Shown: positions 4,156 through 33,893 of the stretch, one piece after another | Layout: every line of letters begins with the position of its first letter | Numbering within the stretch: the stretch's first letter is position 1 | Assembly: GCA_001004885.1 (NCBI GenBank) | Contig: LCRX01000001.1 | Coordinates: forward strand, 73,849 to 107,741 | Length of the DNA stretch: 33,893 nucleotides | Direction: 5' to 3' | Source: Candidatus Magasanikbacteria bacterium GW2011_GWA2_56_11 | GTDB taxonomy: Bacteria > Patescibacteriota > Patescibacteriia > Magasanikbacterales > UBA922 | Translations under genes and position numbers: made by a program | The notes under the pieces: model-generated | What the model saw: only the letters and a program-made list of their open reading frames with translations | What the model was told of the DNA's origin: nothing | Databases searched by the model: none

Positions 4156-7100
4156 ATTTGGCCAGTAAAGCCTATAAGTTTAAGGGCGGCATTGATGAAG
4201 CGGCTATATACAACCGCGTGCTTACTACGGAAGAATTGTCCGCGCGCTACAGGCGCGGCGCCGTCAAATGGAATCTTCAGGCCAGAAGCTGCGCCAACGC
4301 GGACTGCGCCGGAGCGGTTTTTGTCGGGCCAGACGGCACGGCCGGCAGCTATTACTCCGAAGGGCAAAACTCCACCTCCTCGACGCCGTCGTTTGGCCTG
4401 GTCACCGCGCCGGCGGCCAGATATTTTCAATATTCCTTGCAGCTGCAAACGACTACCAGCTCTCCGGCCATAAACGCGGTGTCTGTGCTACCCGATCATT
4501 TTTACGCCGATGCTCCGGCCATAGTCCCCCAATCTTCGTCCGCTTTGGCCTATTCTTCCGCCTTGTTAGGTTTTTCAGCCGCCGAGAGCGGCGCGGGCAG
4601 AGTTTACTATCAGCTTACCAACAACGCCGACGCGGTCTCGCCAACCTGGTATTTTTGGAATGGAAGCAGCTGGACAGCGGCCGTGAACCCGACCGATTAT
4701 AATACCTCTTCCACCATCAACGAGGCTATCACGTCGTTTCACACGCAATTGGGTTCGGGAAATTTTTCTTGGCGCGCTTTCTTGACGTCGTCTGGCGGCG
4801 CCGATCCGGTCGGATTATCCTGGGTCTCGGTGGCCTACAACCAGCCGCCTTTGGCCCCGGAAGCCTTGTACGCGGGCAGCACCCAGGCTCAGAGCGGCGC
4901 TACTAACCCCACAGACATTTCGTCCGCGACCCCTCATTTTTCCGGCGTCTACCAGGATAATGATCCCGTGGCCGAGGGTACAAAAGCCAGGATACAGGTG
5001 TCTGTCGATCCCACTTTTTCCTCCGTTACTCACTGGGATTCGGGCGAAGTCGGGGCAATCATTGCCCCGACCGCCACGAGTACCAGAATCGCTGACATTG
5101 TCTACGGTTCCTTTGGCGCGGCCCCTTTGCAACCGTTGTCTTTGGACGACGGGCAGATTACTTATTATTGGAGATTGCAATTAGGGGACGACCACAGCTT
5201 CGGGCCTTTTTCTCAGGGTGGTTTTTTCACCCTTTTGGATAAGCCGTCCGCCCCGGCTTCGATGTCGGCCTCCAGGACTAATGATACTTTTCTTCTTAAC
5301 TGGCAAGATCTCTCAACAAACGAAGACAGTTTCGTGGTAGAAAGAGCCGACGACACTGGTTCCGGACAAGGGGATTGGATTGTGGTCGCCACGTTGCCCG
5401 CCAATGCCACCTCCTATCATGATACTGCCACGCGGGCGAGCGCGCAGTATTGGTACCGGGTTATGGCCGCCAACCAGGCCGGATCTTCGGAACCGGCCAC
5501 GGACAACGTCTCGCACTACACTACTCCGGCCGCGCCGACCAACGTCTTTGCCCAGTACGGTCCGGATAGCGCTTTCAGCGTCAACTATACCGCTGTCGGG
5601 GCGGTTGAGAATATTTTTTCTGTGGAGAGGTGCGTGAACGCCGACTGCGATAACTCCGCGTATACTCCGGTTTTGGGTTCGCCTTTTTCTTCGTCGCCGC
5701 AAATTGACAATCTGGTCTCTCCGAACAGCCGCTACCGATACCGGGTGCGCGTCGGATCCGAAGAAACTACGACCTCTACCTTTGGCTATTCAGATTACGA
5801 GTATACGCCGCCTAGCGCGCCGACTGGCGTCCAGGCTCAGTATGTAAGCGATGACCGCATACAGCTGACCTGGCAGGACACTTCCGGGTATGAAAGCGGT
5901 TTTGTTGTGTACGCGGCCGAAGACGGAGGCGAATACCAAGCCGTTTCTTCCACCGCCGCCTACACTGTGGGCCAAAACGTGGCCGCGTATACTTATGTGC
6001 TGGGAGCCAAGGACCACAGTTATAAATTCAAGATTAGGGCCTATATTGGCGGCACGTCGGCTAATCCCGAACTGTTTTCGGCCGATTCCAACGAAACCGA
6101 AGTTGTCTATACGTCGCCTTCGGCGCCGGTAATGGAGAGCCCGACGGTTCTGTCGGCCACGTCTGTCCAGTGGAATTTCTCCAGCTCTTCGGTTTTGGCC
6201 GGAGGCTGGCGTGTTTACTCTTTGGCCGGTACCGTGGTCTCCACTCTTACCACCAACAGCGCCACGTCTATAACTGAAGACAATTTGTCGCCCGGTACGT
6301 GTTATACCCGGCGGCTGGCGGCCTTTACCCCCAGCTCCGAGTCGGCGCTTTCTTCGGAAAAGATGGCCTGTACCTGGGCGCAGCCGCCGGCCGGTCCGCA
6401 GGCTAGCTCCCTGACAGAGGGAAGCCTGGTGTTGACCTGGAGCACCGGCAACAACTCCACGAGTACTGAGTACCTGGCGGTAAATACTGTTACCGGGGCC
6501 AATTCGGGCTGGAAAACAGAAAATACCTGGCTGGTTTCTGGCCTAAGTTGCGGCACGCAGTACGCGTTCAATGTTAAGGCCCGTAACTTGGCCGGCGTGG
6601 AAACCGGCAACAGCGATACCCTTACCGTAGCCACTGCCGCCTGCGGCGAATCGGATACGGAGACAGAGAGCAGCGGTTGGAGCCAAAGCGAAAGTGTTTC
6701 TATCGAGCCGGACGAAACAGCGGAAACGCCGCTATCCGTTCCCGTTTCCGGCCCTGGTCCGTCTCTGACGACTACCCCGGTGGATGGCCGCGGCGGGACT
6801 TTGCCGGATAAGCTGCCTGTCGAGGAGTTGCCGCCGGCATCTTCGACTCTTCCTGTCTTGCCGCCCGCGGAAATTATTTCCAGTACCCCGCCTGTGCCCG
6901 AAGAGATTCCCGATTCCCTGCCGGCAACGAAAAAGGTTTTGCCGCCATCCGTCCCCAGTTCCTCTCCAGTGGCTGTTATTCCTCAGGAAAAGACAAAGCC
7001 CTTGGCGGCCAAGAAAAACGAGCTCCAGCCGGCCGTTCCCGTTCCGCCGCCGGCCACCGAAGAAACTACCAGGCCGGAAATCAGCGCGCCGGCCGAACCT

Positions 7101-16897: not shown

Positions 16898-18418
16898 ATG
16901 AGGTTAAAGATGCTCAGAGCGCGGATAAAGCAAATTATGGCCGGAATACTCCCGGGCAGGCAATCCGGACGATCCACTTGGCGGAACATAGAACAGGCGA
17001 GGCCGGTCTACTGGCTTGTTTTTTTGGTCATCTTCGGGGCGTTCATCTATCGCGCGGCCCTCGGGCTGTATTTTTTTCAGGACGACTTTGTCTGGATAAG
17101 CCGCGCCAAAGATTTCGCCGCCGACTGGAGGCTGATATTTTCCGCCGATATTTCCGGTTTTTTCATGCCGGTGGTGCACGCTTATTTCGTTTTGGCCTTC
17201 CGACTATTTGGCCTGGAGTCCGGCTGGTATTATGCCGCCAACATCGTCCTGCACGGTCTTAACGCTTTGCTTTTGTTTAAGCTCGTGGATAAGGCGGCCA
17301 AAAGCCGCCGAACAGCCATTTTTTCGGCGCTTTTTTTCCTGTCTTTCCGCTACCCAATGGAGGCCGTGGTCTGGATTAGCGCCGTTACCGAGTTGCTTTC
17401 GGCCGGCTGGCTCTTGGGGATCGGTCTGGCCTGGGTTAGCTATTTGGAATCATCCAAGAGGCGCTGGTACGTTGTCGCTTTGATTTTGACTTTGGGGTTT
17501 CTTTTTACCAAGGAATGGTCGGCGCTTACGGTTCCTTTTTTGGCGTTGCTTGGTACTTGGCGCTTGGCAAACAGCGGCGCCTGGAATCGCGCCAATATCC
17601 GGCGTCTTTTTGTCCGGCTGGCGCCATTTTTGGCGGTGTTCGCCGGATATTTTTGTTTTGAATTTTTTTTGCAGCACCAGCAAAGTCCCCTTATCGCCAA
17701 GGGTTACTATGTTGTCGGGTGGCACGCAGTGCCGAATATCGCCGGCAATTTTTTACTGTCTTTCGTCCCCCTTACCGAAGCGGCGCACCAGTACCCGCGA
17801 CTGTGGCTCACAGCTTCGGCCGCGGCACTGCTCGCGGCCGCCTTTATCGGCGTCCGCAGCTGGCGTAGGCGGCGCGATAGCGCCCCTGCTCTGTGCGCGT
17901 CATGGATAATTATCGCGTTTGTCCCCACTTCTTTTTTTACTTGGGATCCGTTTATCAGCCGCTACGATTACCTTCCGGCCCTCGGCGTGGCAGTTTTTTT
18001 AGCCGTGGTACTTAATTATTTTACCTTTGCCAAGCAAGCCGGTTTGCGCTTTGCGGCCGTATTTTTAGCCGCCGCCTACATAGGCATTAATATCTTTTTT
18101 ATATCCAAAATGACCCGGCTGTACTACGCGCCTGTCCATGCGGAAAACAAAAAATTTACCGAGGCTGTGGCTGCCAAACTGTACAGCCTGAAAGACGCCG
18201 GGACTCTGGGCATATATCCCAATACGCCGCACAAAAGTTTTATACTGCCTGAAGTGCTCCAGGCTTTGTTTGATATTCCACGGAAGAACATCAGGGTGTT
18301 GGCGCCGGAAACGCCGTGCCCGGAGGCAACGGTCTGTTTGCGGTGGGATCCGGAAACAAAGGCAGTCGGTTTATCCACAGCCTTGACCGCTATTGCCGAG
18401 CTCGAGAATACTCTATAA
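16898..18418 (+). CDS. Multi-pass GT-C-like membrane glycosyltransferase
   Basis: Many TM segments; acidic loop YFFQDDFVWISRAKDF after TM1, as in PMT/ArnT-like proteins; SD gaaggag. Confidence 0.65.
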   Translation: MRLKMLRARIKQIMAGILPGRQSGRSTWRNIEQARPVYWLVFLVIFGAFIYRAALGLYFFQDDFVWISRAKDFAADWRLIFSADISGFFMPVVHAYFVLAFRLFGLESGWYYAANIVLHGLNALLLFKLVDKAAKSRRTAIFSALFFLSFRYPMEAVVWISAVTELLSAGWLLGIGLAWVSYLESSKRRWYVVALILTLGFLFTKEWSALTVPFLALLGTWRLANSGAWNRANIRRLFVRLAPFLAVFAGYFCFEFFLQHQQSPLIAKGYYVVGWHAVPNIAGNFLLSFVPLTEAAHQYPRLWLTASAAALLAAAFIGVRSWRRRRDSAPALCASWIIIAFVPTSFFTWDPFISRYDYLPALGVAVFLAVVLNYFTFAKQAGLRFAAVFLAAAYIGINIFFISKMTRLYYAPVHAENKKFTEAVAAKLYSLKDAGTLGIYPNTPHKSFILPEVLQALFDIPRKNIRVLAPETPCPEATVCLRWDPETKAVGLSTALTAIAELENTL

Positions 18419-18456
18419 GTAGGGTGGACACACCACTCTCGCATAAGGAGACAGGC

Positions 18457-19818
18457 ATGAGTAGTACGAAGATCGCGATCTGGTTGCTCGCGGCGTGTTT
18501 GGGATGCGACGATTCCTCGTCCCCCCGTTTTCCGCCGTCTTTGGAGATCATCGTAGTACATGATGATGATCCGGACCCGTCCGATGCGACCACGGTGGCG
18601 AACGATCATGACCTCGTGCGGCCGGAGGATGTCGAAGACGCATCCCCAAGCTCTGGGTCGCCGGAAGCCGAAGACACGGGAGACGAACAGAGTGCCGCAG
18701 CTGGCGATGCCGGAAGGGGCTGGGACGCTGAAGATACTGAAGAAGGTATAGACGGAGAGGACGCGGCAGAAGCCGCCGATTACCTGGAACCCACAGGGAC
18801 TGAGGACGCCTTCGAGTCCGAAGATTGGGCTCCCGATGTCTCTCAGCCTGAGAAAGACACGCAAGACGCTGGCGAATCCAACGATGGGACAGAGGACGCC
18901 GTCTCGGAAACGTCGCCGCCCCAGGCTGTGGATTCACTGCCGGGTTCTGTCCTGTTCGGCAATCCAGATTCCCTGGCCGCAGCGTGGGCGACCGGCAATA
19001 CCGATGCCCCGGCCTCCGATTTGCAGGCGATTCACGAGCTGGCCGAAATTCCGACTGCCGCCTGGTTCGGGGCCTGGAATTCCGACCTGGCAAACGAGGT
19101 CGGCAGCTACGTGTCTTTGGCCGATAGTGCCGGCGCCGTGCCGGTGCTGGTAGCCTACCGCTTGTCGTGGTGCAACACTTTTGCCGCCGACGGGTCGGAC
19201 GAAGCTGCCTACCTCTCCTGGATCGAAGAGATGGCCGAGGGTGTCGGCGGCCGGAAGGCCGCGGTGATCCTCGAGCCGGGAGCATTGACCCCGTCCAACC
19301 TTGGCTGCCTGACCGAGGCGGACAAGGGCAAGCAGCTGGCTCTCATTCAATCCGCGGTCAGCCTGCTGAAGCAGCAAGGCGCCTGGGTATACATTGACAC
19401 TGGCCGACCGAAGCTGGACGAGTTGCCGGCTGTTGCCGAGCACCTGGTGGCTGCCGGAGTGGGATCGGCCGACGGATTCGCGGTCAATGTGGCCGGTTTC
19501 GAGACGTCGGACGATAGTATCGTTCTCGGACAGGCGCTGGCCGGCATCATCGCCGGGCATGGATTTGATACTCATTTCGTGATTGACACTGGCCGCAACG
19601 GCAATGGGCCGGAGGGTGGACCGGACAGCTGGTGCAACCCCCCTGGCCGGGCGCTTGGCCATATTCCCACAACCGTAACCGGCGCCCTGCTGGTAGACGC
19701 CTTTTTGTGGGTCAAGCCGCCGGGTGAGTCGGACGGCGAGTGTAACGGCGGCCCGGCCGCCGGTAAGTTCTGGCCGGCGTACGCGCTTGAGCTCATCGCG
19801 AACACCGTCTGGTGGTAG
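18457..19818 (+). CDS. Lipoprotein with acidic linker and glycoside hydrolase family 6-like domain (active site apparently degenerate)
   Basis: ATG 18457 with SD AAGGAGA. Lipobox LAAC. Long Asp/Glu-rich linker. GH6 signatures: VIDTGRNGNGPEGGPDSWCNPPGRALG and VDAFLWVKPPGESDGECNGGPAAGKFWPAYALEL. Confidence 0.85.
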   Translation: MSSTKIAIWLLAACLGCDDSSSPRFPPSLEIIVVHDDDPDPSDATTVANDHDLVRPEDVEDASPSSGSPEAEDTGDEQSAAAGDAGRGWDAEDTEEGIDGEDAAEAADYLEPTGTEDAFESEDWAPDVSQPEKDTQDAGESNDGTEDAVSETSPPQAVDSLPGSVLFGNPDSLAAAWATGNTDAPASDLQAIHELAEIPTAAWFGAWNSDLANEVGSYVSLADSAGAVPVLVAYRLSWCNTFAADGSDEAAYLSWIEEMAEGVGGRKAAVILEPGALTPSNLGCLTEADKGKQLALIQSAVSLLKQQGAWVYIDTGRPKLDELPAVAEHLVAAGVGSADGFAVNVAGFETSDDSIVLGQALAGIIAGHGFDTHFVIDTGRNGNGPEGGPDSWCNPPGRALGHIPTTVTGALLVDAFLWVKPPGESDGECNGGPAAGKFWPAYALELIANTVWW

Positions 19819-26843: not shown

Positions 26844-27365
26844 ATGAAAATTACCAGTAATTTGCCCCAATTTTCCGGACGCCCCTATCTAATCATCGTG
26901 GCCGGGCGTCAGGAAGCCAAATTTTATCTCGCCGGGAACAGTGTCATCCGCACTCTGGAATCATTTCGGGTACGTACTCCGCTCTATTCCGATCGCGAGG
27001 GATTTTTCGAGGCCAGCGGCCGCATGGGCGTGATTCGCTCCGGTTCAGCGTACGAGCCGCCCAAAGAAGCCGTGATCCAGGAATTTATCCGCGGTCTCAA
27101 GGAACATTTGGCCGCCATCGAAGCTGCCGAAGAAATCGCCAGCGCGGCCGTTTTTGCCCCCAATTACATGAAGGGCTATATCCGTTCCGCTTTGTCTGCC
27201 AGTCTGGAGCAGCGGCTGGAATTGGTGGTCGAGGGGAACTTTTACCGCTCTCCGCCTTTGGCGTTGTGGCGTAAAATATGGGAAAACCGGGAGCCCCGCG
27301 CGGTTAAGCCCCGAAGCGGCGAGGCGGACAATTTGTGGCATCGAGGGGCCAAACCGCCGCCATGA
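26844..27365 (+). CDS. Host-attachment protein / baeRF-like (archaeo-eukaryotic release-factor-like) domain protein
   Basis: LIIVAGRQEAKFYLAGN... and AAVFAPNYMKGYIRSALSASLEQRLELVVEGNFYRSPPLALWRKI pattern. Confidence 0.5.
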   Translation: MKITSNLPQFSGRPYLIIVAGRQEAKFYLAGNSVIRTLESFRVRTPLYSDREGFFEASGRMGVIRSGSAYEPPKEAVIQEFIRGLKEHLAAIEAAEEIASAAVFAPNYMKGYIRSALSASLEQRLELVVEGNFYRSPPLALWRKIWENREPRAVKPRSGEADNLWHRGAKPPP

Positions 27366-27375
27366 TTTTTTTAGG

Positions 27376-27443
27376 CCGCTCTCATCACCAGCCGGCGCAT
27401 CCGCCCCCTCCACGCGGACGGCACCGGCTGGTGATGAGGGCGG
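27376..27443. terminator. Bidirectional terminator between convergent genes
   Basis: CCGCTCTCATCACCAGCCGG (27376-27395) against CCGGCTGGTGATGAGGGCGG (27424-27443), 19/20 complementary, with inner TCCGC/GCGGA. Confidence 0.75.
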
Positions 27444-28496
27444 TCAGCGCCGGCGAACCAGATTGTCTTGGATCAACCGGCGCATTGCCCAATGATAACG
27501 CGCGGATATGGCGAGACTGGGAATCATGGCACCGGCTTTTTTGCTGTACGCGGTCATTAATTTTTTGATGTCGGCGCGCGCTGAGTACTTCTCGGCTAGC
27601 TGTTTGACGAGGATGATGTCGTCGGGGGAGGCGTCTCGATTTCCGAATATCGTCTCCAGCCGGGCGCGCACGCGCGGCGTCGCTTGGCGCGTCAGATACG
27701 ACCGGAGCAAGGTTTGTTTGCCGGCGCGGATATCGGAGCCTGCCGGTTTGCCGGTTTGGGATTCTTGGCCGAATAGTCCCAGGTCGTCATCTTTGAGTTG
27801 GAATACGAGCCCTAGATATGCGCCGAAACGTCCGAGCTGTTTTAATTCTTTGTCCGGCTGTCCGGCCAGGAGGGCGCCGAGCATGAGCGGCAGCGAGAAG
27901 GTGTACCGGGCGGTTTTGTAAAGGTACAGCCGCGTTATTTGGGCTGGACAGACCCTGGCGCGCGTGGCGCCGAGTTCCACGTCCGACATCTGAGCCAAGA
28001 TTACTTGGCTATATTCTTCCGTGGTTATTCTTGCTAGCCGTTTTTGTCGAGCCGTATCAGGGCTAATCTTGGCAATAATTCCCTGGGCTAAGAAAAAGCA
28101 GAGATCGGCGAGACAAATAGCCAAACTAAGGCCGAAATGAGGACAATCCCTCAGCCTTTTGGCCTCGCCCATAATAGAGAGCTCACGATGGATGGCCGGA
28201 CGGCAGCGTCTTTTATCGTCTCGATCCATAATATCGTCATGAATTAACAGCCCCGCGTGCATAATCTCTGTCGCTGCCGCCAGGGGATAAACGGCGGTTT
28301 CGGCGTCTCCGCAGTACCAGCGGTGGGCGCGTATAAGCAGAGAACCGCGCCATAGTTTACCGCCGGTAGAAAAGCGTTCGATTATGCGGCCGGCCTCCGC
28401 GCCCCAGGGCTGGCGCCGAAGCAGTACTTGCTCTTGTCTAAGGACAGTCCGTATTTCGCGGATCAGCCGTTTTTTGTCTTGCGCTTCGCTGGCCAT
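27444..28496 (-). CDS. Polyprenyl (trans-isoprenyl) diphosphate synthase
   Basis: LLIHDDIMDRDDKRRCRP (first DDxxD) and FQLKDDDLGLFGQ..GKPAGSDIRAGKQTLL (second Asp-rich region). Confidence 0.93.
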   Translation of the reverse strand: MASEAQDKKRLIREIRTVLRQEQVLLRRQPWGAEAGRIIERFSTGGKLWRGSLLIRAHRWYCGDAETAVYPLAAATEIMHAGLLIHDDIMDRDDKRRCRPAIHRELSIMGEAKRLRDCPHFGLSLAICLADLCFFLAQGIIAKISPDTARQKRLARITTEEYSQVILAQMSDVELGATRARVCPAQITRLYLYKTARYTFSLPLMLGALLAGQPDKELKQLGRFGAYLGLVFQLKDDDLGLFGQESQTGKPAGSDIRAGKQTLLRSYLTRQATPRVRARLETIFGNRDASPDDIILVKQLAEKYSARADIKKLMTAYSKKAGAMIPSLAISARYHWAMRRLIQDNLVRRR

Positions 28497-28500
28497 ATTT

Positions 28501-30453
28501 TTAGACTGCGCAACGTTTAATAAATTGCCTTATTTTGAGGGCCTCAACCTCAGCCGCGGACGCGGCTTGGACCATTCGGTCGGCCATGCGCGCCAAATAG
28601 TCAGGATTTTTTATATAGACGGCGCTCGACAAGATATCCTGGGCTTTTTTCGCTTCCCGCAGGATTAGTTGGTTTCCCTCGGCCAGAACTTCGTGCCAGA
28701 ACAAAGAACGGAGACGTTCTTTGTTTGCGGCCAGGGTAATGCTTCCGTTGTCCCCGTGCTTCTTTGAGAATTTACGCAGGAGGAGCGCCACTATAGGCGT
28801 GATTCTTCCCTGGTCCAGGTCTTCTTCCCAGTCGTGGATATCGTCGTGTATTTGGCGCGCCCCCAGGTAGTGCCGCATGAATTTGATGGTTTGTTCGACT
28901 TCCGGTCCGGTCGGAGAGTAACCGGATAACACGGTTACTGCCGCTACCCCAGCGGCATGTCCGAGAGAGCGATTGGCCCAGAGGCTCAAATCGGCGAACT
29001 CCGGCAGGGGGTTGAAATTAAAGACGCCTTCTGTGTGTTCGGCTCGGGCGTTGGTCAGTTCCCAATAGTTGGCTTCTTCGAGCTGGTCGAGAATACCGTG
29101 GAATAGGGCCAGGGCCTCGGGGTGGCTCGCAAACAGCTTGCTATACACCGCGGTAACATTTCTTAGGCAAAGATTGGCAACTGGCAGGAGGCGTTCGCTC
29201 CGGCCGCCATCCATAATGCGATCGTAAATGGTGTACGCTATCCAGCCCATCATATTGGCGCGACCGAGTTCGGTGAGACTGTGGTCGCGTATTTGGTTCG
29301 GAGTCTCCAGCGCTTGAGCCGCATAATACGGGAGGAGACCGATTTCTTGGTCAGTATCTTGGCGCAGAACCATGGCCAGACAATCAAGCCCGGCTGTTTG
29401 CATATCTGGTCCGCAACTGGCGAAGCAGCGGGCGGTTTCTCGTGTAATACGGTCGTACAACTGATGTGCCCTGCTCCGGAGTGGGACAGTCGGCCGCTGG
29501 CGGGGCAGACTTCGATAAAGCGCCAGAGCCTCCAGCCTGGCGGCGGCCGAGAAAGCGCGAGAACCGGAATACCAGACAGTGTTGGCAGCGGTTTTTTCAA
29601 TGACGTAGGCGTACGGTCTGTCCCAGACATTTGTCGGCCAGGCCAGCAAAGACTGTATTCCGGATTCAATCATATTGAGCGGGGACTGACAGCGTATCAG
29701 GGCCGACACCATGAGCGCCGTAAAGAATGGATTCAGCCAAATCCCCGGGCCAGTTTGCCGCGCGGCGATAGCCCCTGTGAGCTGAATTCGCCGGCCGCTG
29801 CCATGGCTGCGGGCCAGGGCGTACAAAACCGGGTAAGGGCTAAAGTAGAAAGGGGACTGCGGAGGATCGCCGGATAGCGCCTCGTCGAGGTAGCGTTCCA
29901 ATGGCGGCAGGGTTACCCCGTAAAGGCTAAGAAAGTAGGCGATATTACTGTTGACCACCACGTCTACGTTGCCAGTTTTTTCCGGGGCGCAGTCGGCCGC
30001 GGCCCAGGTGTAGTAGGGCCCGCCGAGTTTTACTTCCAGCCTGGACAGCAGCATCGTAATCTCGGCTAGCGTCTCTCCGGTGATAGCTTCGGGCCGGAGT
30101 CGGGTGAGCGCGGATAGACCTAGACAAGTATCATCCAAATCATCGGGCAGGCGTTCGCCGGGCGGCAAAACACTGTCTCTCGTCCAGTAATTATACGACG
30201 AGCCCTCGCGGCGTTCGGCACAGAGAAAGTCGGCCAGCCGCTCTTGGGCCGGAAAATAGTCTGCCTCAGTTATCTCGGCCAACGACAGGGCGATTGATGA
30301 AGCATAGAACGTGGTTTGGCGCTCTTGCGGAGCCAGAGATAAGTCCTTGTCATAGCTGGTGGTGCTCTTAAAGCTGCCGTTGGCATTTTGTTCCTCATGG
30401 AGACAATTAATAACAAGAGCGCACTCTCGGCGCCACTGTTCTAAGCTTACCAT
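28501..30453 (-). CDS. Two-domain terpene-cyclase-like protein: N-terminal alpha-toroid with DxDD, C-terminal class I isoprenoid-synthase-like domain
   Basis: LPDDLDDTCLGLSAL (DxDD at residues 105-108, 30130-30141) in a squalene/terpene cyclase-like toroid. C-terminal YTIYDRIMDGG and RQIHDDIHDWEEDLDQGRITP. Confidence 0.75.
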   Translation of the reverse strand: MVSLEQWRRECALVINCLHEEQNANGSFKSTTSYDKDLSLAPQERQTTFYASSIALSLAEITEADYFPAQERLADFLCAERREGSSYNYWTRDSVLPPGERLPDDLDDTCLGLSALTRLRPEAITGETLAEITMLLSRLEVKLGGPYYTWAAADCAPEKTGNVDVVVNSNIAYFLSLYGVTLPPLERYLDEALSGDPPQSPFYFSPYPVLYALARSHGSGRRIQLTGAIAARQTGPGIWLNPFFTALMVSALIRCQSPLNMIESGIQSLLAWPTNVWDRPYAYVIEKTAANTVWYSGSRAFSAAARLEALALYRSLPRQRPTVPLRSRAHQLYDRITRETARCFASCGPDMQTAGLDCLAMVLRQDTDQEIGLLPYYAAQALETPNQIRDHSLTELGRANMMGWIAYTIYDRIMDGGRSERLLPVANLCLRNVTAVYSKLFASHPEALALFHGILDQLEEANYWELTNARAEHTEGVFNFNPLPEFADLSLWANRSLGHAAGVAAVTVLSGYSPTGPEVEQTIKFMRHYLGARQIHDDIHDWEEDLDQGRITPIVALLLRKFSKKHGDNGSITLAANKERLRSLFWHEVLAEGNQLILREAKKAQDILSSAVYIKNPDYLARMADRMVQAASAAEVEALKIRQFIKRCAV

Positions 30454-30456
30454 AGG

Positions 30457-31911
30457 TTATCTGCTTGGGTTTAACGGTAAGTGGACTATAAATTTTGTGC
30501 CTATGCCCGGCCGGCTGGCGACGGTAATCGTGCCGCCAAGCTCTTGAGTTACTATACGAGAAACAGTCGCGAGCCCTATCCCCAGCCCGTGTCCTGGTTT
30601 TTTGGTGGTAACCAGCGGATCAAATATGCGCGGCAGGATATCGGCCGGTATGCCCTGTCCGCGGTCCGATACGGTCAGTTCAACTCCGCCCGGTGTCTCT
30701 GCCAGGGTGATATCGATGAAACGCTCTCCGGGTTCGGGGACTCCTTCATAAGCGTCAATGGCGTTGGCCGTCAAATTGACCACCACTTGGTGGAATTTGA
30801 TGGCGTTACCCCACATAAAAACAGGCTTTTCCGGTTGCAGGCGGATTTCCGCCGACAGCGTGCGCGCTTTGTACCCGAGGACATCGATGGCTTGTTGTAT
30901 TTCGTCGCGCAAAGAGAAATACGTCCTCGTGTCTTCGTTTTGAATTTGTTTTTTGATCATCCCCATAAACTGCTCCAGTTTCTTGGTGGCCGAGAATGCC
31001 TGGTTAAGGCGATTTTTGGTTTCGTCGAGTGTCGTCAGCCGGCCGGAAGTGAGTTGTTCGAGGTGAAGCGATACGGCCGTTAAGGGGTTTACGATGTCGT
31101 GGAAAAAGCCCGAGGCCAGACGCCCGAATTCGGCGAAGCGGTAGACCTGTTCAAAATTTTTGAGCTGGACTTCTTTTAATTTTTTCGTCCGTTCTTCCAC
31201 CCGGCTTTCGAGCAGGTCGCGGTCTTTTTTTATCGTTGCCTCCGAACGTCGCGCGCGGCGCAGCGATTTTTCAATTTCCCGGTTGGATAGCCAGGTAACA
31301 ATGGCGAACAGGCCCAGCATGACGCCAAGCTCGATAACATATGTCCATTGGACCGGGTCGGCTAGCCAACGTTGGTCGAAAGCGACAAACCCCCGGCGAT
31401 TGCCGTAATACAGGCAGCCAAGATAAAACACGATGAAGCCGGAGACGGCGAAGGCGGCTCGCGTGCCGGCAAGGATGCTCAGCATGACCACCACCAGAGC
31501 AAGTCCGAGCAGAGGAATTTCGAGAAGCAGTCCCCAATGGTACAGCGAATAGGCGCTCGGAAAGAAATACACGGCCACCAGCAGGTAGGCAGCGGGGTGG
31601 TAGTGCCCCAATCTCGATAGGACATAGAGCCCGATAAAGACGCTGACGAGGAGACCGGCTGAAAGCGGCGTGATGCCTTTGTACGAGCTGCCTTCGGCCA
31701 GGCGATTCAGACAAACTGACAAGAAAAATAAAGCCGAGAGCGCGAGTGAGCCGGCGAGAAGTATGTTAAGGATATATTCCCGGCGGGCATCGTCTTCGCG
31801 CCGTGATTTCGGCGCCAGTTGGCGGCCAATAAGAAAACAGATACTCCGGGCTATTGACGCGAAACGGCGCACGACCGGGGGCCAGTTTGGTTTTAAGCGC
31901 GGAGTATCCAT
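30457..31911 (-). CDS. Membrane sensor histidine kinase
   Basis: About six TM segments, then coiled coil, FFHDIVNPLTAVSLHLEQL (H-box), VNLTANAIDAYEG (N-box), DRGQGIPADILPRIFDPLVTTKKPGHGLGIGLATVSRIV (G-boxes). Likely start is MDTPRLKPN at 31911, not the ORF-track start 32070. Confidence 0.9.
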   Translation of the reverse strand: MDTPRLKPNWPPVVRRFASIARSICFLIGRQLAPKSRREDDARREYILNILLAGSLALSALFFLSVCLNRLAEGSSYKGITPLSAGLLVSVFIGLYVLSRLGHYHPAAYLLVAVYFFPSAYSLYHWGLLLEIPLLGLALVVVMLSILAGTRAAFAVSGFIVFYLGCLYYGNRRGFVAFDQRWLADPVQWTYVIELGVMLGLFAIVTWLSNREIEKSLRRARRSEATIKKDRDLLESRVEERTKKLKEVQLKNFEQVYRFAEFGRLASGFFHDIVNPLTAVSLHLEQLTSGRLTTLDETKNRLNQAFSATKKLEQFMGMIKKQIQNEDTRTYFSLRDEIQQAIDVLGYKARTLSAEIRLQPEKPVFMWGNAIKFHQVVVNLTANAIDAYEGVPEPGERFIDITLAETPGGVELTVSDRGQGIPADILPRIFDPLVTTKKPGHGLGIGLATVSRIVTQELGGTITVASRPGIGTKFIVHLPLNPSR

Positions 31912-31922
31912 TATCTGCCGGG

Positions 31923-32036
31923 CTAGACCGCCGACCACGGCGGGGACGAGCTGGCAATAGAGACGGCTAAACTGCCGAGCATGATCTTGCCTCTCGCGGC
32001 CTTGGCGGTCAGAATGGCGGTGATTAGGTTCGCCAT
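31923..32036 (-). CDS. Possible 37-aa leader ORF before the histidine kinase
   Basis: MANLITAILTAKAARGKIMLGSLAVSIASSSPPWSAV; GGAAAG SD-like sequence upstream; stop lies 11 nt before the kinase ATG. Confidence 0.3.
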   Translation of the reverse strand: MANLITAILTAKAARGKIMLGSLAVSIASSSPPWSAV

Positions 32037-32232
32037 ATTTTGTCTTTCCGGTATCGCTGTCCCTAGGCAAGGGAAACGATACTAGAGGGATAAAATTTTG
32101 CCGTAAACGCGACGGCTGTCGACCCCAGCGCGGTTTTTCGGCGAGTACCCCACAGAGAGCGCGCCGTGGTGTACCAGACTAGTATACTGGGCGGGAGATG
32201 AAATTTTCATAACATTTATTTTTGAGTCAATT

Positions 32233-32270
32233 AACAAAATTTTCCTCTTATTTAAGAGGAAAATTTTGTT
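32233..32270 (-). terminator. Strong terminator after response-regulator gene
   Basis: AACAAAATTTTCCTCTT-attt-AAGAGGAAAATTTTGTT, 17-bp perfect arms. Confidence 0.85.
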
Positions 32271-32275
32271 CTCAG

Positions 32276-32950
32276 TCAGGCTTTGCTGTCAAGTTTGTAA
32301 CCTCTTCCGGGAACGGTGTGGATAAGTTTTTGCTTGCCATGGCCTTCAATTTTTTTACGCAGACGCAAGACGTGGGTTTCAATGGTATTCGAGAACGGAT
32401 CAGCGTCGCGATCCCAGACATGCTCGAGGAGCGCGGCGCGCGACACTACCTCGCCGCGCCGTCGTACAAGATACTCGAGGAGCATGTATTCCTTGCGGTT
32501 GAGAGTGATTTCCCGTTTGCCCCGCCGGACACTCTGACGTTGGGTATCGAGGGACAAGTCGCCTACGCAGTACAGATCGTCGGTGATCATGGGACGGCGG
32601 CGGAGCATGGCGCGGATGCGGGCCTGGAGCTCGGCAAAGGAGAACGGTTTGGTGAGATAGTCGTCCGCTCCGGTGTTCAGCAGTTCGACCTTGGTTTGAA
32701 TATCGGTTACTACGGAGAGGATCAGGATCGGTACCCGCTTATTTCTCTCCCGGACTTCGCGGCAAATTATTGAGCCGTTTTTGCCGGGTAAATGATAGTC
32801 AAGAATTATCAGGTCGTAATCGTGCGTGCGCGCCCAGTACGATCCGGTTTCTCCGTCGCGGGCCAGGTCGACAACATAACAGGCATCACCGAGGCCGGCC
32901 TTAATAGAATCGCCAAGTTCGTCTTGGTCCTCGATAACTAAGAGACGCAT
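32276..32950 (-). CDS. OmpR/PhoB-family response regulator
   Basis: MRLLVIEDQDELG, LIILDYHLPGKNG phospho-acceptor, LTKPFSFAELQARIRAMLRR, winged-helix end TIETHVLRLRKKIEG..IHTVPGRGYKL. Confidence 0.95.
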   Translation of the reverse strand: MRLLVIEDQDELGDSIKAGLGDACYVVDLARDGETGSYWARTHDYDLIILDYHLPGKNGSIICREVRERNKRVPILILSVVTDIQTKVELLNTGADDYLTKPFSFAELQARIRAMLRRRPMITDDLYCVGDLSLDTQRQSVRRGKREITLNRKEYMLLEYLVRRRGEVVSRAALLEHVWDRDADPFSNTIETHVLRLRKKIEGHGKQKLIHTVPGRGYKLDSKA

Positions 32951-33037: not shown

Positions 33038-33480
33038 CTAGAATCCGAATGACTCCAGCAGATTTTTCAATTGCGGCACTAAACCGCGCAGCTGGTTCAA
33101 CAGCGATTCGCGTACGGTAATAACGAAAGTGCGCGCCCCTGGTATATCGTCCTCCACTTCGCGGATGGCAATATCTGTCGAGGTGGCAAAAGGCGGGCCG
33201 CCGATGCCGTCGGATGACTTCATCTCGATCTGGCCGCGAATTTCGCCGTCAGGATTGGCGCTCGTGTGCACGTTTACGTAAAGCTGGCCATCCCGCATAG
33301 CCTGAGTGAGCGCGGCCAGGCTGCCGATACTGGGGTTGCAGGTGCTGGCTGCCGGGAGAATGTCGTCTGCCTGGATGGCGCCGGCGGCCAGTCGGCCTTC
33401 GATATCAACCGGAGCGTCGGGGATAAACAGATTAACTATTGGCGGCCCCTCAGCTCCCGGCGCCGCGAGCCCGCCGGAGA
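33038..33480 (-). pseudogene. 5'-truncated CHRD-domain coding segment
   Basis: APGAEGPPIVNLFIPDAP..GRLAAGAIQADDI..AMRDGQLYVNVHTSANPDGEIRGQIEM is the C-terminal part of a CHRD domain. The start of ORF 33038..33532 (MRSNGKTVIRLLQKW...) is out-of-frame kinase sequence. Confidence 0.6.
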
Positions 33481-33893
33481 TCGCGGACCATTTCTGCAAC
33501 AGTCTGATAACGGTCTTCCCGTTGCTTCTCAAGCGCGCTATTCAGGACATGGAGAACCTCCGCTGAAGCGTCGGGAACGAATTTTAAAAGGGACTCTGGT
33601 TCTTCATTCAAGATCGAATACATCAGTGCTGCATCATGTTCGCCGCGAAAGGGGAGGTGACCGGTGAGCATTTCGAACAAGACAGCGCCGAAGGAAAAGA
33701 TATCGGAACGATGATCCGAGTCCGCGCCCTGAATTTGTTCCGGCGCCATGTAACCAAGCGTTCCCACCGTGCTGGTGGCTTTTGTGAGTTTAAGCGAGCC
33801 TTTCAGCTTCGCCAGACCGAAATCCATCACTTTGATTTGATTCTTCTTGTTCACCATGATGTTGTCAGACTTAATATCACGGTGGACGATGCC
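33450..33893 (-). CDS. Ser/Thr protein kinase (Pkn-like), N-terminal part beyond window edge
   Basis: GIVHRDIKSDNIMVNKK (HRDxKxxN), VMDFGLAKL (DFG), GTLGYMAPEQIQG (APE), SDIFSFGAVLFEMLTGHLPF. Confidence 0.93.
   Translation of the reverse strand, partial: GIVHRDIKSDNIMVNKKNQIKVMDFGLAKLKGSLKLTKATSTVGTLGYMAPEQIQGADSDHRSDIFSFGAVLFEMLTGHLPFRGEHDAALMYSILNEEPESLLKFVPDASAEVLHVLNSALEKQREDRYQTVAEMVRDLRRARGAGS

Follow-up and report, generated by a model that had tools for sequence, protein, structure and literature searches.

A conserved operon of Patescibacteria with a Trp-ending peptide, a cyclase-prenyltransferase fusion and a membrane kinase as a candidate prenyl-peptide signalling system

The window, i.e. 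the whole stretch of 33,893 nucleotides analysed here, originates from Candidatus Magasanikbacteria bacterium GW2011_GWA2_56_11, the assembly of which represents a 1.25 Mb genome at 99% completeness. A preliminary description of this DNA had placed three genes head to tail on the minus strand, and they are indeed found there: a kinase, a protein of 650 amino acids and a polyprenyl synthase, with gaps of 3 nt and 4 nt, respectively, between them. As read from the sequence, no obvious Shine-Dalgarno motif precedes the gene of the 650-aa protein or the synthase gene, and the hairpin proposed at the end of the operon does exist, with arms of 23 nt (27376-27398 and 27421-27443) that are 91% complementary. 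A further gene had been missed: 37 codons between the genes of an OmpR regulator and the kinase, with a stop codon 11 nt upstream of the kinase start (ATG at 31911). The features of the locus are the following:

27376-27443, no strand: terminator-like hairpin at the operon end, common to the operon and the convergent gene
27444-28496, minus strand: polyprenyl diphosphate synthase (PF00348, 6.8e-48), probable donor supply
28501-30453, minus strand: cyclase-prenyltransferase fusion of 650 aa, assigned by profile, Foldseek and motifs
28504-29466, minus strand: P domain of the fusion (residues 330-650), class I trans-prenyltransferase-like, with D411/D415 in the FARM, Q534 before the SARM and D537/D538 in the SARM
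29554-30453, minus strand: C domain of the fusion (residues 1-300), class II terpene cyclase toroid, DxDD motif (DLDD) at residues 105-108
30457-31911, minus strand: sensor histidine kinase with six membrane helices and HATPase_c, without extracytoplasmic domain
31923-32036, minus strand: peptide gene, 37 aa (MANLITAILTAKAARGKIMLGSLAVSIASSSPPWSAV), candidate precursor with Trp34 as candidate acceptor, by profile rank and conservation
32181-32230, minus strand: promoter-like sites 5' of the peptide gene, weak and near chance level
32233-32270, no strand: perfect 18-bp palindrome 3' of the regulator gene, possible terminator before the peptide operon
32276-32950, minus strand: OmpR-family response regulator, 224 aa, REC and Trans_reg_C (Pfam, 8.6e-24 and 2.9e-26)

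The palindrome together with the weak promoter-like sites (6 found in the region as compared to 3.0 expected) suggests that peptide, kinase, enzyme and synthase may be encoded on a single transcript. Beyond the operon, a Host_attach/baeRF-like protein (PF10116, 4.4e-7) is encoded convergently on the plus strand (26844-27365) and has the same terminator hairpin.

The 650-aa protein matched nothing above the cut-off in Pfam or NCBIfam, where it returned only noise. The preliminary description had seen two domains in it, and this is correct: the N-terminal half is related to class II cyclases (3e-12), and the C-terminal half adopts, in a model with pLDDT 88.4, the fold of class I isoprenoid synthases. 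The C domain is a toroid with the DxDD acid motif as in the class II enzymes MstE and drimenol synthase; in profile comparisons it matches drimenol synthase (3e-12), a squalene-hopene cyclase and MstE (0.023), and in Foldseek drimenol synthase and squalene-hopene cyclases (3.4e-9). The nearest solved relatives by profile and fold, with aligned DxDD motifs, are drimenol synthase (9mhs, 9m7d) and MstE (6sbb); these are fused to a haloacid dehalogenase or stand alone, whereas the C domain studied here is fused to a class I domain. The P domain resembles FPP, GGPP and hexaprenyl-PP synthases in Foldseek (2e-5 to 5e-4); PF00348 does not match the window enzyme and matches one of 19 members weakly (0.056). 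In the window, the FARM reads DRIMD rather than DDxxD, and the SARM retains DD. Q534 and D537 are kept in 51/51 aligned members that include the region, a few of which duplicate one genome, and the Asp pair at positions D1/D5 of the FARM is present in 48/50. Compared by described motif, this is the signature of trans-IDS-like prenyltransferases, i.e. the FARM, a Gln before the SARM and the first SARM Asp. According to a 2026 review, the Gln just before the SARM and the first SARM Asp recognise indole in ComQ, PalQ, ChrPC and Ord1, and tryptophan is the target of every characterised trans-IDS-like prenyltransferase (PMC13290415).

The DxDD motif is intact in 25 loci, and the C domain is degenerate or truncated in others; the 270-300 aa forms encoded at loci L056-L064 have no C domain at all and retain the P domain. 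Since the C domain is variable and the P domain is kept, the constant core consists of peptide, P domain, kinase and regulator. No PF00348 protein other than the polyprenyl synthase, in which the FARM reads DDIMD and the second motif DDxxG, was found in the genome. A synthase lies beside the module in 8 loci, seven of them with an intact DxDD motif and the eighth, L050, with DLDC in a C domain of full length, a distribution that, small as the sample is, fits a dedicated donor for the cyclising forms. Isoprenoid enzyme, membrane kinase and OmpR regulator do form one conserved module as had been proposed, but the synthase, present in those 8 loci only, is an accessory rather than a core part of it.

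Evidence for the short gene as a true coding sequence comes from its conservation. All 32 first-pass loci whose upstream sequence is present have a short open reading frame in the gap between regulator and kinase with a Trp one to seven residues from its end (that of L058 is uninterrupted yet lacks a standard start codon), and such Trp-ending frames are present in further independent loci. The precursors are 22-43 aa long. An alignment of 23 loci shows no variation at Leu9, Arg15 and the Trp, and a Pro precedes the Trp in 20 of them. Leave-one-out profiles placed the peptide at rank 1 in 23/23 loci among 39-464 open reading frames (E 3.5e-5 to 7.5e-19; for the window, rank 1 of 464 with E 1.1e-9). 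All six codons are used for the invariant Leu9 and likewise for the invariant Arg15, and the differences by codon position are 0.54, 0.31 and 0.68; both observations indicate selection at the protein level. In the L056-L064 lineage the leader is altered, and the ending G-T/I-P-W-R-D/S is retained in most. Finally, the peptide profile found matches in 13 of 380 genomes, three of which (those of the window, L030 and L045) had been built into the profile and ten had not, and all 13 also encode the enzyme. Given 21 enzyme-positive genomes among the 380, the chance of such agreement is about 1e-18, a value that is not strictly independent because of the three genomes in the profile.

The module is widespread and real. 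Using the window protein as a single query, a contig scan gave no matches; three further genomes from the family encode the 650-aa protein, each time behind a homologous kinase. An alignment-based scan with one genome per species yielded 21 loci, the title of each naming Patescibacteria or a phylum within it, and enzyme matches in 21 of 380 genomes of the phylum are spread across many families, with two of the matches being marginal. Two loci with weak enzyme matches, L065 (G144) and L119 (G708), were judged to be non-members. Across the species scan and additional samples at class and phylum level, nearly all loci have the order regulator, kinase, enzyme, with the OmpR-regulator homologue 5' of the kinase in most loci, and the flanks vary. 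A lack of conserved synteny had been named beforehand as an outcome that would speak against a system; since the order recurs in many Patescibacteria, the linkage is not due to chance, an origin that is also disfavoured by the mixed phyla and the varying flanks. A FastTree topology of the P domain, with no tests applied to it, mixes the named phyla and has Magasanikbacteria in several places, a pattern suggestive of horizontal spread as well as loss. A probable decayed copy is found at L117 (G738), a cyclase-domain fragment with an in-frame stop (5154-6176, minus strand), near which neither kinase nor peptide was found.

The kinase has HATPase_c and a sub-threshold, weak match to HisKA (PF00512), and no HisKA_3 (PF07730). 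Its structure model consists of six membrane-length helices and a subsequent long coiled coil, with no extracytoplasmic domain. Mean identity is 30% in the sensor half as compared to 42% in the kinase half, as expected for the receptor of a variable ligand, but also for membrane domains generally. The regulator carries Trans_reg_C (PF00486) and not the GerE/LuxR domain (PF00196).

Taken together, we consider it likely that the operon encodes a signalling system which functions in the manner of ComQXPA and is based on a Trp-prenylated peptide. As its precursor, the 37-aa peptide would comprise a recognition leader, the N-terminal LxxxLTxxxxR, and a core, the C-terminal P-W segment. A long prenyl diphosphate would come from the polyprenyl synthase; the P domain would ionise it at D411/D415 and move the chain onto Trp34, gripped by Q534 and D537; where the DxDD motif is kept, the C domain would protonate the chain and cyclise it. 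The modified peptide may then leave the cell, and the six-helix membrane kinase may sense it and phosphorylate the OmpR regulator, which would in turn act on targets. Judging from the motifs, the product would probably be polycyclic in the forms with DxDD, including that of the window.

Four observations argue that the enzyme modifies a peptide: the conserved Trp-ending peptide, the Trp-recognition signature, the enzyme lineages that have only the class I domain, and locus L114 (G735). Here, the peptide (6921-7031, minus strand) is directly followed by the enzyme (5486-6973, minus strand) with no kinase between them, and neither kinase nor regulator was found nearby. This argues that the peptide belongs to the enzyme and is not a leader of the kinase gene; L114 itself is possibly a sender-only or a RiPP locus.

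The signalling reading has to be weighed against three alternatives. (i) The modified peptide might be a secreted RiPP effector, e.g. an antimicrobial or partner-directed lipopeptide, with kinase and regulator merely controlling its production. Prenylated peptides made by such enzymes are indeed known as RiPPs and not just as pheromones (PMC13290415), CPR bacteria are inferred to be epibionts, and a distant cyanobacterial relative of the P domain, described below, adjoins an NHLP precursor. However, in nearly every locus the kinase stays beside peptide and enzyme, its sensor has six helices, and no recurrent transporter, protease or immunity gene was found near the module in the loci compared. 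We therefore regard a pure effector as unlikely, keeping in mind that effector and signal roles may coincide in known systems. (ii) The short frame might be a regulatory leader or ribosome-arrest peptide for translation of the kinase, which would sense a free terpenoid made by the enzyme. Arrest peptides may depend on Trp and Pro close to their ends, as present here, and the frame lies directly 5' of the kinase gene. Yet in L114 the enzyme follows the peptide directly and no kinase is present, the distance from Trp to stop varies from one to seven residues, and the enzyme carries the Trp-recognition signature, all of which makes this explanation very improbable. (iii) The self-monitoring system for membrane lipids or free terpenoids of the preliminary description, in which the peptide has no part, would account for a class II cyclase domain, a polyprenyl synthase and a membrane kinase in one operon, but it is hardly credible given the evidence for peptide modification listed above, the absence of the synthase from most loci and the several lineages that lost the cyclase domain while P domain and peptide stay.

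The proposed prenyl-peptide system resembles ComQXPA of Bacillus (PMC4008528) in having an enzyme of the isoprenoid synthase superfamily, a short precursor with a Trp close to the C-terminus next to enzyme and kinase, a multi-helix kinase and an adjacent response regulator. The differences are substantial: ComQXPA has a LuxR-type regulator, ComA, a HisKA_3 kinase and the single-domain PF00348 enzyme ComQ, and occurs in Firmicutes, whereas the module of Patescibacteria has an OmpR-type regulator, a kinase with weak HisKA and a class I domain fused to a class II cyclase. Similarity to the precursor ComX (PF05952) was sought and not found, the five peptides tested having no Pfam match up to E 1. 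Moreover, the SARM of ComQ requires N/G-D (PMC5331326), and DD is found here; PalQ retains Asp at positions 200 and 204. The PalP-PalX-PalQ cluster of Paenibacillus alvei provides a precedent for clustering of a kinase, a precursor and a class I-like Trp prenyltransferase (PMC10853753). PalX, however, belongs to the NHLP precursors and ends in Trp, whereas no NHLP domain was seen here and the Trp is one to seven residues from the end, and PalQ lacks the cyclase domain. Since kinase, regulator and precursor families differ, the module is a member of neither ComQXPA nor PalPXQ. Prenyltransferase and cyclase are also combined in one protein in ChrPC and NctPC (Hubrich 2024, via PMC13290415), with a trans-IDS-like P domain in ChrPC and a C domain resembling MstE in NctPC; this comparison is one of descriptions, and the review states no link of these enzymes to a kinase.

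A tblastn search against plasmids gave two weak cyanobacterial matches. The one from Nostoc falls within an annotated TPR protein and was discarded. On plasmid unnamed6 of Tolypothrix sp. PCC 7910 (E 6e-3; positions 1-1115 of L124), an unannotated P-domain-like open reading frame is followed by a precursor of the Os1348/NHLP clan with a Trp within its C-terminal part. Comparison of this frame with the P domain by profile yields values of 94% and 8.6e-8 for the single pair. Likely, the two genes encode a cyanobacterial peptide prenyltransferase and its precursor, a link that is supportive of the prenyl-peptide reading but not decisive.

In a 2014 census, loci for ComQXPA-like prenyl-Trp pheromones were confined to Firmicutes (PMC4008528), and a 2020 survey of quorum sensing in CPR bacteria leaves ComX, prenyl groups and pheromones unmentioned (PMC7567580). 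A description of the module was not found in the literature combining CPR with pheromone, RiPP or prenyltransferase; the module has probably not been described before, although coverage of subscription papers was incomplete and an earlier account is possible. It is tempting to speculate, although this may well prove wrong, that it represents a new pheromone class with a polycyclic terpenoid on Trp, made and sensed by one operon of Patescibacteria; lineages with linear prenyl groups would then have arisen where the cyclase domain was repeatedly lost, and the system would be the first prenyl-peptide signalling outside the Firmicutes. If so, genomes of about 1 Mb would devote four or five genes to producing and hearing a terpenoid peptide. 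This would open signalling in bacteria that are mostly uncultured to concrete tests and would also yield a group of new peptide prenyltransferase-cyclases. The pairs of peptide and enzyme are of small size, and E. coli can serve for testing them, with no need to grow the source organism.

Several genes near the module, i.e. those of a penicillin-binding protein, HrcA, a P-type ATPase, glycosyltransferases, a U32 peptidase and a PAS protein, are common to close relatives only; we therefore claim no target or exporter. After the enzyme, L041 (5091-5690) and L052 (10462-10935, plus strand) encode small proteins that are related to each other, with a PAS domain in the L041 copy. In the window, a Pkinase fragment (1.7e-31), truncated where the contig ends, runs into an open reading frame with a CHRD domain in a different frame (33038-33532 and 33450-33893, minus strand). 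Finally, a protein with a cellulase-type glycosyl hydrolase family 6 domain (2e-45) is encoded at 18316-19818 on the plus strand of this 1.25 Mb genome.
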